60,972 bases of DNA from Gammaproteobacteria bacterium (GTDB taxonomy: Bacteria > Pseudomonadota > Gammaproteobacteria > Eutrophobiales > Eutrophobiaceae), in NCBI GenBank assembly GCA_016193395.1, contig JACPSH010000003.1, forward strand, positions 1-60,972. The letters are read 5' to 3'. The notes below the pieces were generated by a model. The model was not told where the DNA came from, searched no databases, and saw only the letters and a list, made by a program, of their open reading frames with translations. Position numbers and translations under genes: made by a program. Of this stretch, positions 1,197 to 7,202 are shown one piece after another. Position 1 is the stretch's first letter; every line of letters begins with the position of its first letter.

Positions 1197-3695
1197 ATGT
1201 TGACCGTGTCGTTCGGGATCCAGGTCGACATGACCCAGGAGGACGGGCTCGCCGGCCTGTTCAACACCATCGGTGACGTCGACGAGCAGCAGGTCACTGC
1301 CACGGCCTCGAACATTACGGCATTCACGTTCTCGGGCTACGCGCTGACGATCAGCGGGCAATTCGATTTGCCGAGCGACGACAGCGAGGATGAAATCAAT
1401 GAATTCCTGGACAGCCCCTTCACCGGGCTGATGATTCGCGATCCGTCGCAGCGCATCGTCCTTTCCATTTCCGGTGTCACGGGGCTTTCGCTGCGGGATC
1501 TCGAAAGCATCGACTTCGAACAGAAGTTCGAACGCCTGCTGGCTCAGGGCGTGCGCATTTTAGGGAGCCCGTTCAACGACGTGTTGCTGGGAGACACGGG
1601 CGCGGACACGCTCATCGGCGCCGGCGGCTCCGATGAGTTGCGCGGCCTGGGCGGCAACGACGAACTCGCCGGCCTGAACGGCAATGACACGCTGCACGGC
1701 GGTGCCGGCAGCGACCTCATGACGGGTGGTGCGGGCAATGACCGCTATGAAGTGGAGTCGGCCGGCGACCAGGTCATGGAACGGCCCGGTGAGGGAGTGG
1801 ATGAAATCCACACCAACATCTCCTTGGCGCTGCCCGCGAACGTGGAGAACCTCAGTCTGCTGGGGTCCCTCGCCATCAACGGCTTCGGCAATTCCGCGGG
1901 TAACACGATATTGGGCAATGCGGCACGCAATGTTCTCATGGGCGGCGTCGGAGATGACTGGCTCGACGGGCACGGCGGAATCGACGTGCTTGCCGGCGGC
2001 AGCGGCAACGACACCTACGTGATCGACCACCTCAGCGAGGTAAACAAGTTGGCGGCCGATGCGGGCGTCGATCATGTGCAGAGCCCCTTAAGCTACGCGT
2101 TGGGCCCGAACCAGGAGAACCTCACACTCACTGGTGCCGGAAACATCAACGGCGCAGGCACCGCCACTTCCAACACGCTCAGCGGAAATGCGGGACACAA
2201 TTCGCTGAACGGCGGGGCAGGAGATGACCGTATCCTGGGGAATGCCGGCAACGACGCGTTGATCGGAGGGGCTGGTAATGACGCTCTCATCGGCGGTGCA
2301 GGCAACGACACCCTCGCGGGCGGTCGCGGTGACGATGTCCTGAAGGGAGGGGCCGGTCGTGACGTGCTGGTGGGCGGGGCCGGCAACGATGTATTGGCGG
2401 GCGGCGCCGATATCGACAAGGCGGACTTCAGCGGGTTGTCCACAGCCATTGTTGTTGACCTGGCTGCCCGCACGGCGACGGGGAACGGGACTGACAAGCT
2501 GTCCGGGATTGAGAATGTGACCGGTGGAGCCGGCAATGACACCCTGTCGGGCGACGCACGCACGAACGTGCTGGTGGGAGGGGTAGGCGATGACGTGCTG
2601 GCGGGTGTGGCGGGCAACGACACGCTGAAGGGCGGCGCTGGGGATGACACCTATTTCGTGAGTGACGGGCCCGACGACCCGTTCACCACGCTTTCGATGT
2701 CAGGGAACAGCTACATCCTGAACGGGGATCTCAGTTTCACGTCTACGAGCGGGACGTTTAACATTTCCCTCGGCGATCTGACCAATGACGGGCTCGTCGA
2801 CACCATTAATGTCTCCTATGTCGACAACATCGGGTATTCCGGGCATTGGTGGGGCCTCAGTTTCTCGACCCGGGAGTTGGACCAGAACCTGGTTCCGGGC
2901 TTCTACGACGATGCAATGCGCTACCCGTTCGAGACCACTGGCCATCCGGGATTGGATGTCAGTGGTGACGGCCGCGGCTCCAACACGGTCACGGGAAATT
3001 TCACCGTAGTCACCGCCGACTTCGATTATTCCGGCGCTTCGCCCCAGGTCCTGGATTTCACGGTGAATTTCGAACATCACTCCGAAGGCGGGCCGGGCAC
3101 GGTGACCGGCACACTGAAGATCAGTCTGAGCGAGAACGATTCGGTCATCGAGGCGGCGAATAAGGGCACCGACACGGTTTTCTCCTCGATCACCTACGAA
3201 TTACCGGCGAATGTGGAGAACCTGGTCCTCGGCGGAGACGATGCCATCGATGGCACTGGCAATGGGCTCTCCAATTCAATTACCGGCAACCTCGCAGACA
3301 ACAGTCTGAACGGCGGTGCCGGTGGCGACACCCTGACCGGGGGCGCCGGTAACGACATTTTCATCTTCGACGCTCCACTGGGTGAAGCGGCCACCATAGA
3401 CACCATCACGGATTTCGACGGTGCGGGGTCTGCGGCGGAGGATGAAATCCACGTGGACAATGGCGCGGGTCTGTTCCAAAACGTCGGCGTCGACGGGGCG
3501 CTTTCCGGGGCAGCGTTCGAATCCGGAGCCGGATTGACGGAAGCCGCAACGGCAGAAGGCCGCATCATCTACGACACGGCGACCGGCGCCTTGTATTACG
3601 ATTCCGACGGTTCGGGTGAAGCGGCTGCCGTGCAATTTGCGGTTATCGCCACTGTGCCCGCAGCACTGGACGAGTCAGACTTCCTGATTGTCTGA
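1197..3695 (+). CDS. RTX-type calcium-binding protein, probably type I secreted
   Basis: 832 aa. Blocks of glycine/aspartate-rich nonapeptides (GGxGxDxLx) occur at about 130-190, 240-265, 335-405, 440-485 and 695-720. These are RTX repeats that bind calcium and fold as beta-rolls after secretion. Serralysin-like connectors (PANVENL...NGxGN) lie between blocks, as in modular RTX proteins. A non-repeat beta domain (about 500-665) carries a GRGSN motif. The C-terminus (IIYDTATGALYYDSDGSG ... DESDFLIV) resembles the uncleaved type I secretion signal of this family. No transporter genes for it lie in the window. No catalytic domain was recognised, so it could be an adhesin, a surface-layer protein or a truncated enzyme. 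The ATG at 1197 has no clear ribosome-binding site and the N-terminus is atypical, so a lost 5' part is possible. Confidence 0.85.
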   Translation: MLTVSFGIQVDMTQEDGLAGLFNTIGDVDEQQVTATASNITAFTFSGYALTISGQFDLPSDDSEDEINEFLDSPFTGLMIRDPSQRIVLSISGVTGLSLRDLESIDFEQKFERLLAQGVRILGSPFNDVLLGDTGADTLIGAGGSDELRGLGGNDELAGLNGNDTLHGGAGSDLMTGGAGNDRYEVESAGDQVMERPGEGVDEIHTNISLALPANVENLSLLGSLAINGFGNSAGNTILGNAARNVLMGGVGDDWLDGHGGIDVLAGGSGNDTYVIDHLSEVNKLAADAGVDHVQSPLSYALGPNQENLTLTGAGNINGAGTATSNTLSGNAGHNSLNGGAGDDRILGNAGNDALIGGAGNDALIGGAGNDTLAGGRGDDVLKGGAGRDVLVGGAGNDVLAGGADIDKADFSGLSTAIVVDLAARTATGNGTDKLSGIENVTGGAGNDTLSGDARTNVLVGGVGDDVLAGVAGNDTLKGGAGDDTYFVSDGPDDPFTTLSMSGNSYILNGDLSFTSTSGTFNISLGDLTNDGLVDTINVSYVDNIGYSGHWWGLSFSTRELDQNLVPGFYDDAMRYPFETTGHPGLDVSGDGRGSNTVTGNFTVVTADFDYSGASPQVLDFTVNFEHHSEGGPGTVTGTLKISLSENDSVIEAANKGTDTVFSSITYELPANVENLVLGGDDAIDGTGNGLSNSITGNLADNSLNGGAGGDTLTGGAGNDIFIFDAPLGEAATIDTITDFDGAGSAAEDEIHVDNGAGLFQNVGVDGALSGAAFESGAGLTEAATAEGRIIYDTATGALYYDSDGSGEAAAVQFAVIATVPAALDESDFLIV

Positions 3696-4272: not shown

Positions 4273-5164
4273 ATGATCGGCATCCTGCTGGCCAACAGTG
4301 AGGGTAGTCCCGGTGTGCCGGCGGCGGTAGAGGTGTTGCGCGCGGGGCGCGCCGCGCTCGATGCCGTCGAGACCGGGATCCGCATTGTCGAAGCTGACCC
4401 GTCGATCCGCAGCGTCGGTTTCGGCGGTGCGCCCAATCTTCTCGGTGAAATGGAACTGGATGCCTCGATCATGTGCGGCGCGACGCTGCGCACCGGCGCG
4501 GTGGCCGCCCTCAAGGGTTATCTACATCCGATCACCGTCGCGCGGCGGGTGATGGAATTGACGCCGCATGTCATGCTCGCCGGCGAGGGCGCGGCGCGTT
4601 TTGCGGCCGGCATCGGCGCGCAGGCCGGCGAGGTTCTGTCCGACGATGCGCGCAAGGATTATGAAAATTGGCTGGCGGATCGGCTGGCACGAATATATCC
4701 CGGACATGGCGCGCACGGGGAAACCGGCCGGCACGACTTGTTTCCTCGCGCGAGGCGGCGATGGACATTGGGCCGGCGGCGTCAGCACTTCGGGCTGGGC
4801 CTACAAGCATCCGGGGCGGCTCGGGGATTCACCCGTCATCGGTGCAGGGCTGTACGTCGATGAGCGTTACGGCGCGGCCGGGTGCACGCAAACCGGGGAG
4901 ATGACCATACGCGCCGGCACGGCCCGTGCCGTTGTCGCGTACTTGAAGCGCGGAGCTTCAGTCGGGGAGGCGTGCAGCGAGGCAATCGACGACTTGCGCG
5001 CTTTAAAAGGCGGTTATCTCGGCCCGGTCATCGTGCATGCCGTCGATCGCGAGGGCGATCCCGCCGTGCTTGGATTCAGGCTCGCGAAGGAAGCGAATTA
5101 CTGGTACTGGCGCGAGGGAATGGACAGTCCCGAGTGCCGGTCCGTGGTCAACGCGGGGTGCTAG
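4273..5164 (+). pseudogene. Frameshifted asparaginase / isoaspartyl peptidase family (Ntn hydrolase) gene
   Basis: The first frame encodes a typical N-terminal alpha chain (MIGILLANSEGSPGVPAAVE ... GFGGAPNLLGEMELDASI ... LAGEGAARFAAGIGA). The second, shifted by one base, encodes the beta chain (AGTTCFLARGGDG ... STSGWAYKHPGRLGDSP, GAGLYVDERYGAAG, TGEMTIRAGTARAVV). In this family the precursor cleaves itself before a threonine that becomes the nucleophile; GTT in the second frame is the likely site. The frame changes between about 4660 and 4735, in the linker just before that site, by a net extra base or two missing bases. Neither frame alone could make the enzyme. A sequencing or assembly error is possible because both halves are well preserved. 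The end abuts the convergent gene, with overlapping stop codons at 5161-5164. Confidence 0.8.
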
Positions 5165-5469
5165 TTGTTTTTTTCCGCCACCCAGATCGCGCCGTAGGAA
5201 AACAAGTATACGGTGATTGCAGCAGCGGCAAATGTCTGCAGGCTCAGCTTCATCGAGGTGATCAGCGACACCAGCTCCACCGCCGGCAATTGCCAGGCGA
5301 CCACCGCCGACCCCGCGACCGTGGCCGAAAGCAGGAGCAGGTTTTTCACCCACATTGGCAACTCCCTGCGCCGGGGCACCTGCGCCATCACGGCGGAGGC
5401 AAATCCCGCGTCGGAAAGATATGGCTCCGTACGCCGCAGTTCGCTGAAGAGATTGTCGATGTCGTTCAT
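5161..5469 (-). CDS. Single-pass membrane protein, putative anti-sigma factor
   Basis: 102 aa from the ATG at 5469, which overlaps the sigma-factor stop in an ATGA, so the pair is translationally coupled. An N-terminal cytosolic part of about 40 residues (MNDIDNLFSELRRTEPYLSD) is followed by two hydrophobic stretches (about 44-63 and 70-92). A short inner-membrane protein coded immediately after an ECF sigma factor is usually its anti-sigma factor. No zinc-binding HxxxCxxC motif is present, so it is not a ZAS-type protein, and the role rests on position (inference). Confidence 0.7.
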   Translation of the reverse strand: MNDIDNLFSELRRTEPYLSDAGFASAVMAQVPRRRELPMWVKNLLLLSATVAGSAVVAWQLPAVELVSLITSMKLSLQTFAAAAITVYLFSYGAIWVAEKNN

Positions 5470-6014
5470 GCCGGGCTCCCGCTGCGCCAACTGCTCAACT
5501 GGTCCCTGAGTTTTTCGCGTCCGCGCTGGATATGGCTCTTGGCGGTGCCGAGCGGGCAATTCATGATCTCAGCCACTTCCTCGTGTGTCAATTCCCGGTG
5601 CAGGTGCAGGTGCAATGCCATGCGTTGCTCCGGGCTCAAGACCAGCATCGCGCGCGCCAGGTCGCGGTGCAGATCGGCGGCCGCCCCCGGGTCATGACCA
5701 GCGTCCGGCACATCGGCGTCGTCCTTAAGTTGTTCCTCGGGCTTGAGCGAACGCCGGTGCGCCAGGAAGCAGTGATAGGCGATCCGGTAGAGCCACGTGA
5801 AGAATTTCGCATCGCCGCGGAACTGGTGCAGGGACTTATATGCCTTGATGAATGTCTCCTGCGCCAGGTCGTCCGCAAGTGCGTGATCCCATCCTGTGAT
5901 CTGCCGCAGCGAGTAGCGCAACTGCGACTGATGGCGCTTGACCAGTTCCGCGAATGCCCTTTGGTCATTTTCATTGAGGACCCTGCCGATCAGCGTCCGG
6001 TCATCCAAAGACAT
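5466..6014 (-). CDS. RNA polymerase ECF sigma factor (RpoE-like)
   Basis: 182 aa. Region 2 spans about 20-90 (DLAQETFIKAYKSLHQF, with FTWLYRIAYH for -10 binding and melting). Region 4 spans about 120-175 (LSPEQRMALHLHLHRELTHE followed by the helix-turn-helix EEVAEIMNCPLGTAKSHIQRGREKL). Length and two-domain layout are standard for group 4 sigma factors. It lies 6 bp after the DUF6249 protein and overlaps the putative anti-sigma gene by 4 bp, so the genes from 7110 down to 5161 probably form one operon. Confidence 0.93.
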   Translation of the reverse strand: MSLDDRTLIGRVLNENDQRAFAELVKRHQSQLRYSLRQITGWDHALADDLAQETFIKAYKSLHQFRGDAKFFTWLYRIAYHCFLAHRRSLKPEEQLKDDADVPDAGHDPGAAADLHRDLARAMLVLSPEQRMALHLHLHRELTHEEVAEIMNCPLGTAKSHIQRGREKLRDQLSSWRSGSPA

Positions 6015-6020
6015 GGATGC

Positions 6021-6728
6021 CTAGTTCCCGCCCTTGCTCCCGTTCCCATTGCTCTCCAGCTTCCAGATGAGGAGCTGCGCCAGGCCGATGAACAACGGGA
6101 TGGCGCCGATAGCCGCCGCCTCCGGCGCGTCAATGACCATGAAGCAGACGATGATGCCCAGCCCGATGCCGACCATGATCAGGCCCTTGTGCAGGTTGGT
6201 CCTCGGCGTCTTCGGGCCGGCCTCCTGCTGGAAGCTCGCAAACACCTCCGGCGGGATCTCTTTGCCGCTGGCGACGTAGCTGTTGATGGTGTCATGGATC
6301 AGCTTGCGCTTGCGGTATGAAGCATAAAGTATGCCGGCAACGATCATGATCGGCGTTCCGAAAATGAGGGTAATGGCCAGGCCGCCGAGAAAGATTCCTC
6401 CCATGGGGAATCTATCGCTGTTGCCATGCCCACCGCCATCCAGTTTTTTGAGTTCCTTGAGGTCCTCAACGAGCGCCCGCCGTTCCTCCGGGGTCATCGA
6501 TTCCGCGGAATCGCTGAACAGCCCTTCCACGAAGCTTTCGATCTTCTTTTCCAGCCGCTCCTCCAGGTCCTTCTTCTTCGCGGCGTCCTCGTCATCGCCA
6601 TTGATGTCGATGACGAATGGCATGGACGCGCCGTGCTTATCCTCATCCGGGGTCGTGGCCTGTTCCTGCGCGCACGCCGGGACGGCAAACCCGAGAAGGA
6701 GTATGGCCGTCAGCAGCAATTGCTTCAT
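6021..6728 (-). CDS. DUF6249-like membrane protein
   Basis: 235 aa. A cleavable signal peptide (residues 1-20, ending ACA-QE) is followed by an acidic periplasmic segment of about 90 residues with a possible coiled coil (AAKKKDLEERLEKKIESFVE). Then come a transmembrane hairpin (about 108-137), a cytosolic loop and two more hydrophobic segments near 180-225. This matches the DUF6249 type often seen beside ECF sigma factors (recalled, not searched). GGAGAG lies about 8 bases before the ATG. It could present envelope signals to the sigma/anti-sigma pair (inference). Confidence 0.75.
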   Translation of the reverse strand: MKQLLLTAILLLGFAVPACAQEQATTPDEDKHGASMPFVIDINGDDEDAAKKKDLEERLEKKIESFVEGLFSDSAESMTPEERRALVEDLKELKKLDGGGHGNSDRFPMGGIFLGGLAITLIFGTPIMIVAGILYASYRKRKLIHDTINSYVASGKEIPPEVFASFQQEAGPKTPRTNLHKGLIMVGIGLGIIVCFMVIDAPEAAAIGAIPLFIGLAQLLIWKLESNGNGSKGGN

Positions 6729-6780: not shown

Positions 6781-7110
6781 TTACAGGCTCGGCGTATTGC
6801 CGGCCAGGCCGCCGAAATCGCCGGCCAAGGCGATGTTCTGGATCTCCAGTGCCACGGTCGCGGGGCGGATACGGCTGGCGACCACCACGATTTCCTCCAT
6901 CTCCGCTTCCGTCACCGGTAGCCGGCTGGCGACGACCAGGATTTCCTCCATTCCCTGTTCCGCTTCCGCCGGGAGCCGCTTGGCGACCACCACCATCTCT
7001 TCCATGCCTGCGTAACTATTGCCCTTGTTCAGATCATCCTGGGCGGTTGCGCCATGCTGCATGCCGAGGGTGAGGACGGTGCCGAGTGCCATCAATTTTA
7101 CGAGTTTCAT
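6781..7110 (-). CDS. Small secreted protein with three TonB-box-like repeats
   Basis: 109 aa. A signal peptide (1-23, ending ATA-QD) precedes a mature protein of about 86 residues. It holds three tandem units: GMEEMVVVAKRLP, GMEEILVVASRLP and EMEEIVVVASRIRP. Each resembles the TonB box of outer-membrane TonB-dependent receptors (consensus near EEIVVTAxR), but no plug or barrel domain follows. CGGAGA lies about 8 bases before the ATG. It is the first gene of the ECF sigma operon, 52 bp before the DUF6249 gene. Possible roles are a TonB decoy, a TonB-linked signal, or a low-complexity protein that mimics the box. Function unknown. Confidence 0.75.
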   Translation of the reverse strand: MKLVKLMALGTVLTLGMQHGATAQDDLNKGNSYAGMEEMVVVAKRLPAEAEQGMEEILVVASRLPVTEAEMEEIVVVASRIRPATVALEIQNIALAGDFGGLAGNTPSL

Positions 7111-7168
7111 GTCTGTTCTCCGGTGTAAACGGCTGCCTTTGAATTGTTAGATGCCGCCCGGAGAGGCT

Positions 7169-7202
7169 TTGGATGCAGGCATATTGGAGAGCATGCATCC
7201 AA
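7169..7202. repeat. Perfect 9-bp inverted repeat in an AT-rich gap
   Basis: TTGGATGCA (7169-7177) is mirrored by TGCATCCAA (7194-7202) with 16 bases between. It lies before the TonB-box operon and after cysQ, both on the minus strand. There is no T-run, so it is not a typical intrinsic terminator. A regulator-binding site upstream of the sigma operon is one possibility. The following 40 bp are strikingly AT-rich. Confidence 0.4.

Follow-up and report, generated by a model that had tools for sequence, protein, structure and literature searches.

This study provided evidence that the minus-strand ORF at 6781–7110 of a 60,972-nucleotide stretch of Eutrophobiaceae DNA (hereafter the window, meaning the whole stretch that was analyzed) encodes a 109-aa, predicted exported protein with three TonB-box-like units, and that its gene opens an ECF sigma-factor operon behind a conserved promoter-like site. 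The sequence-only reading had described a signal peptide followed by three near-identical units and no receptor domain; all of these were seen in the ORF, and the observation is real and unusual. Two new facts are firm: the promoter-like site is conserved, and the exported protein encoded first in the operon is exchanged from one lineage to the next. The predicted exported ORF, its three units, their fit to the TonB boxes of the same genome, the operon, and the conserved, once-used promoter-like site can all be read directly from the DNA. Concerning the function, the tri-box protein may be a periplasmic competitor for TonB that is produced while the sigma factor is active, a reading that we consider plausible yet short of probable.

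The signal peptide MKLVKLMALGTVLTLGMQHGATA (7042–7110, minus strand) reads by eye as type I, with cleavage probably occurring after ATA and before Q (MKLVKLMALGTVLTLGMQHGATA/Q). It is followed by QDDLNKGNSYAG, unit 1, LPAEAEQG, unit 2, LPVTEAE, unit 3, and IRPATVALEIQNIALAGDFGGLAGNTPSL, with the C-terminus lying 29 residues past unit 3. The units, all on the minus strand, are MEEMVVVAKR (unit 1, residues 36–45, 6976–7005), MEEILVVASR (unit 2, residues 54–63, 6922–6951), and MEEIVVVASR (unit 3, residues 71–80, 6871–6900), and the two linkers space them 17–18 residues apart. TRF independently detected a DNA repeat at 6872–7005 (period 51, 2.5 copies, 78% match), and its score of 154 was the highest in the window. 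The codon-position GC of the ORF (0.68/0.39/0.78) is in line with that of the adjacent genes, and the ORF therefore looks translated. A search against Pfam and NCBIfam yielded neither a plug nor a barrel domain, and no match exceeded a curated cut-off; matches to CheB and hydroxylase families were rejected as lying far under the cut-off. The plug (PF07715) and 22-strand barrel that follow the box in a TonB-dependent receptor are thus absent. A single-sequence AlphaFold model, made without an alignment, was helical and of low confidence (pLDDT 44.5) and was set aside. Elsewhere in the window, the ORF at 1197–3695 contains 27-bp repeats (TRF 2327–2392 and 3306–3357) encoding GGAGND-type nonapeptides of an RTX-like, calcium-binding kind.

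The genome itself offers receptors for comparison. It encodes 16 plug domains, and the stretch before the plug was readable for 15 of them; their TonB boxes sit just past the signal peptide and include LEEIIVTAQK, IEEMVVTAQK, LEEVVVTAQK, and LEEIVVTATR. A PSSM built from the 15 TonB-box positions of these receptors scored the three units at 13.6, 12.7, and 11.4, all above the best value elsewhere in the ORFs of the window (9.4 over about 18,400 residues); the genuine receptor boxes, which were scored on themselves, reached 16–33 and so stand above the units. When the mature tri-box protein was shuffled 20,000 times, the third-best site never exceeded 6.1. The units match the boxes of the genome's own receptors, following [ILM]EE[IVM][IV]V.A.[RK], and the first of them lies, as in the receptors, near the mature N-terminus just past the signal peptide. 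Unlike a receptor, the tri-box protein has three copies instead of one, no plug or barrel, and, in every unit, Val at the position where 14 of the 15 compared receptor boxes have Thr. Across 53 family genomes, EE[IMV]xVV[AG]x[R/S] occurs at five sites: once in each unit and once in each of two real receptors. The Val variant was found at the TonB-box position of sister-genome receptors, as VDEEILVVGQR (L056) and VVEEVFVVGTRR (L057), and is therefore used by receptors. In Eutrophobiaceae, this motif appears close to TonB-box specific, on small numbers.

The closest box to unit 1 in its own genome, AGIEEMVVTAQK, belongs to the receptor at C29, and the first box lies shortly past the signal peptide in both proteins (AQDDGDGAGIEEMVVTAQK in the C29 receptor and AQDDLNKGNSYAGMEEMVVVAKR in the tri-box protein). 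This best match, the way in which the signal peptide and first box mirror receptor N-termini, and the singleton distribution of the protein would suit a relic, i.e., the N-terminal part of a TonB-dependent receptor, with its signal peptide and box, that was transferred into the operon, was expanded by slippage, and is translated without having a function. However, no plug-like sequence follows the boxes, the DNA likeness to the start of the C29 receptor is confined to the box, the frame is intact with host-like codon-position GC, and the gene stands first behind a strongly conserved promoter-like site. The motif has also been retained through divergence: between units 1 and 2, 7 of 30 nt have changed without loss of the motif, and simulated random substitution preserved its strict form in about 0.1% of trials and its loose form in 1.3%, a test that is supportive at most because the units were picked for their likeness and comprise only 30 nt. 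We regard such a relic as improbable.

The link to an ECF sigma factor, which the sequence-only reading had also drawn, was borne out, as both genes belong to one operon with the tri-box gene first. The gene order is a small exported protein, a DUF6249 membrane protein with a signal peptide (6021–6728, minus strand; PF19762, E 2.8e-23; kept in six sister genomes), an ECF sigma factor (5466–6014, minus strand) with both region 2 (Sigma70_r2, E 8e-14) and region 4 (Sigma70_r4_2, E 1e-12), and a short, anti-sigma-like protein; cysQ lies upstream of the tri-box gene. The last gene (5161–5469, minus strand; start MNDIDNLF) overlaps the sigma stop codon by 4 bp. Its product is a putative anti-sigma factor by its position and two hydrophobic segments, and the corresponding gene likewise lies 3' of the sigma gene in the sister operons; no Pfam or NCBIfam family matched it over the cut-off, and the profile search of the operon products gave no FecR match in it. 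Six further genomes of the family share the DUF6249–sigma module, and more distant DUF6249–ECF versions are present in other families of the class. In one such family (L033–L035), no small exported ORF of at least 45 aa was evident directly before the DUF6249–ECF–anti-sigma operon. As a separate observation, the DUF6249 protein (6021–6728) is rich in Asp in its exported part, and its counterpart at L009:1063–1980 contains DVDLDKDGEND, which resembles a calcium-binding loop; the DUF6249 module may therefore respond to divalent cations.

A predicted ECF promoter of 31 bp, TGCATCCAA-N15-CATCTAA (7147–7177, minus strand), ends 36 bp before the tri-box start codon. The same site heads all seven DUF6249–ECF operons of the family, each time at an equivalent position ahead of the leading small ORF, with one of the seven reading CGTCTAA for CATCTAA and the 15-base spacer diverged throughout. 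Its chance expectation in the window is 0.00, and it is unique in its own 2.7-Mb genome even when up to two mismatches are allowed; the operon itself is thus the visible output, since the site has no second copy there. Most naturally, the operon would be autoregulated, with this site recognized by the sigma factor that the operon encodes. The loci bearing the site are 7147–7177, L038–L041, and L046–L053. The site occurs a second time in sister genomes; in two of them, this copy is followed by a further small exported protein (L051 and L053), which suggests a sigma regulon consisting largely of small exported proteins. At L050 (G005:C111:11835–11865), one such second copy is separated by 50 bp from a downstream gene whose product looks like the membrane fusion protein of an RND efflux system.

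The six sister operons also open with a small, exported-looking ORF, but its sequence is unrelated to the tri-box protein and lacks TonB boxes. In L005–L008, the first ORFs encode mutually related exported proteins of 91–95 aa (best pairwise E 1.8e-23, with L007 matching most weakly), and the proteins at the second sites resemble this family; the first ORFs of L009 and L010 form a separate related pair (E 9e-14). The tri-box protein matched neither group beyond chance (best E 0.06). The promoter and operon are thus kept and the product of this slot is not, and the tri-box protein is best described from these comparisons as the lineage-specific occupant of what appears to be a fast-changing output slot of the sigma factor. 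The tri-box operon shares its gene order with other DUF6249–ECF–short anti-sigma operons of the class, and its promoter-like site with those of the family, and differs from them in its first gene.

Since the sister operons manage without boxes, the main rival explanation is that the slot is filled by a small exported protein with a regulatory or stress-related role unrelated to TonB, e.g., feedback on the DUF6249/anti-sigma module, and that the repeats stem from an acidic/hydrophobic stretch that only resembles a TonB box and was recently duplicated in tandem. The slot is common and the sequence is not, which points to a job that needs no boxes: six operons with the same promoter site open with box-free exported ORFs, and the second promoter sites in two sister genomes precede more such proteins. 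The near specificity of the motif for TonB boxes in the family and its retention despite nucleotide divergence speak against this explanation, which we hold to be a real possibility, if not a likely one.

TonB boxes work by pairing with the TonB C-terminal domain (PMC11308372 and PMC5413942). Competition for TonB by the tri-box protein would proceed as follows. The protein would be made from the first, promoter-proximal gene of an autoregulated ECF sigma operon; cleavage and export would place a flexible chain with three boxes in the periplasm; its three strands would mimic the TonB box and, in the manner of a receptor box, pair with the C-terminal domain of TonB; and, with the sigma factor active, TonB would be drawn off the receptors and TonB-dependent uptake damped. 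A target exists, as the genome has four TonB_C matches, three of them above the cut-off, together with the 16 plug domains. The stronger form, in which the operon supplies a multivalent, gene-encoded TonB decoy whose three free boxes lower all TonB-dependent uptake at once, seems doubtful.

A close precedent is the pentapeptide ETVIV (Tuckman and Osburne 1992, cited in PMC11308372 and PMC5413942): this free TonB-box peptide blocks E. coli TonB function when added at high concentration (PMC11308372), and it was employed as a TonB blocker in PMC5413942. The tri-box protein is likewise a free box-like peptide with an E-x-hydrophobic-[IV]-V core, but ETVIV is synthetic, single, externally added, and needed at high concentration, whereas the tri-box protein is gene-encoded, predicted to be exported, and carries its box in triplicate. 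The missing Thr falls outside an ETVIV-type pentapeptide, because the aligned cores of the units are EEMVV, EEILV, and EEIVV. Against TonB competition stand the high concentration required for the soluble-peptide block (PMC11308372), the unrelated small proteins filling the same slot in sister operons, the absence of Thr from all three units, and the lack of any homologue or tandem-box protein elsewhere in the collections searched. As sister slots hold unrelated proteins, TonB mimicry is not general to the DUF6249–ECF system. TonB-dependent colicins and pyocins, such as colicin M and pyocin S2 (PMC11658791), also bear a TonB box in a non-receptor protein; colicins combine one box with receptor-binding and toxic domains, whereas the tri-box protein has none of these domains and has a signal peptide.

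As in FecI/FecR/FecA cell-surface signaling, an ECF sigma factor is here linked to a TonB-related sequence; unlike that system, the operon has neither a FecR-type anti-sigma factor nor a receptor bearing an N-terminal signaling domain. Co-transcription with the sigma and anti-sigma-like genes from a single promoter-like site forms a closed loop, in which the tri-box protein could report TonB load, TonB binding protecting or exposing it and the DUF6249 protein or anti-sigma factor reading its state and setting sigma activity. However, almost none of the anti-sigma-like protein lies in the periplasm, its sequence did not match FecR, and the sister systems run without TonB boxes; a reporter of this kind is very unlikely. 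Both the reporter and the receptor relic are less likely than either TonB competition or a regulator unrelated to TonB.

The tandem-box pattern was found only in its own genome, with none in the 52 other family genomes or in 368 other genomes of the class, in a sample that includes one genome of the genus; the reversed-pattern control in the class-wide scan was also zero. A narrower form of the pattern, which needed GAG as the first Glu codon of one unit and could miss some cases, gave no true match in a collection of 84,980 species. The single match there (L030) was an out-of-frame reading of a glycine-rich linker. The protein itself had no relative in the 52 family genomes, in the 84,980-species collection, or among plasmids and the PDB, and only a weak match (E 0.04) in its own genome. 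One family-genome match (L002, E 0.009) was rejected as unrelated, falling within a long ORF that apparently encodes a signal-recognition GTPase, and a viral contig match (L064) as a chance match on the opposite strand of a 476-aa ORF. A literature search on multi-TonB-box proteins, TonB decoys, DUF6249, and the promoter site returned nothing relevant.

These searches bear on the earlier proposal that the protein could sequester TonB, tune uptake, or report TonB load, with a search for homologues of the repeat beside ECF genes as a check. The proposal is partly supported. The exported ORF, the three box-like units, and the ECF operon stood, and the family of homologues did not: six sister operons lack a TonB-box repeat, tandem boxes occurred nowhere else searched, and a conserved tri-box family beside ECF genes is absent from the genomes searched. 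Loss of the repeat with the rest kept, which the same reading had named as counting against it, describes the operon in its six sister versions and does not strictly apply to the protein, for which no sequence homologue was found.

TonB-dependent receptors far outnumber TonB in cells, and the sharing of TonB access among receptors is poorly understood. If TonB binding fails, what is left is still an ECF operon in which the exported protein made nearest the promoter is exchanged between lineages. If the tri-box protein does bind TonB, it would be a genetically encoded TonB inhibitor comparable with the ETVIV peptide, and access to TonB would be regulated in a new way, by a natural soluble competitor that a sigma factor controls.
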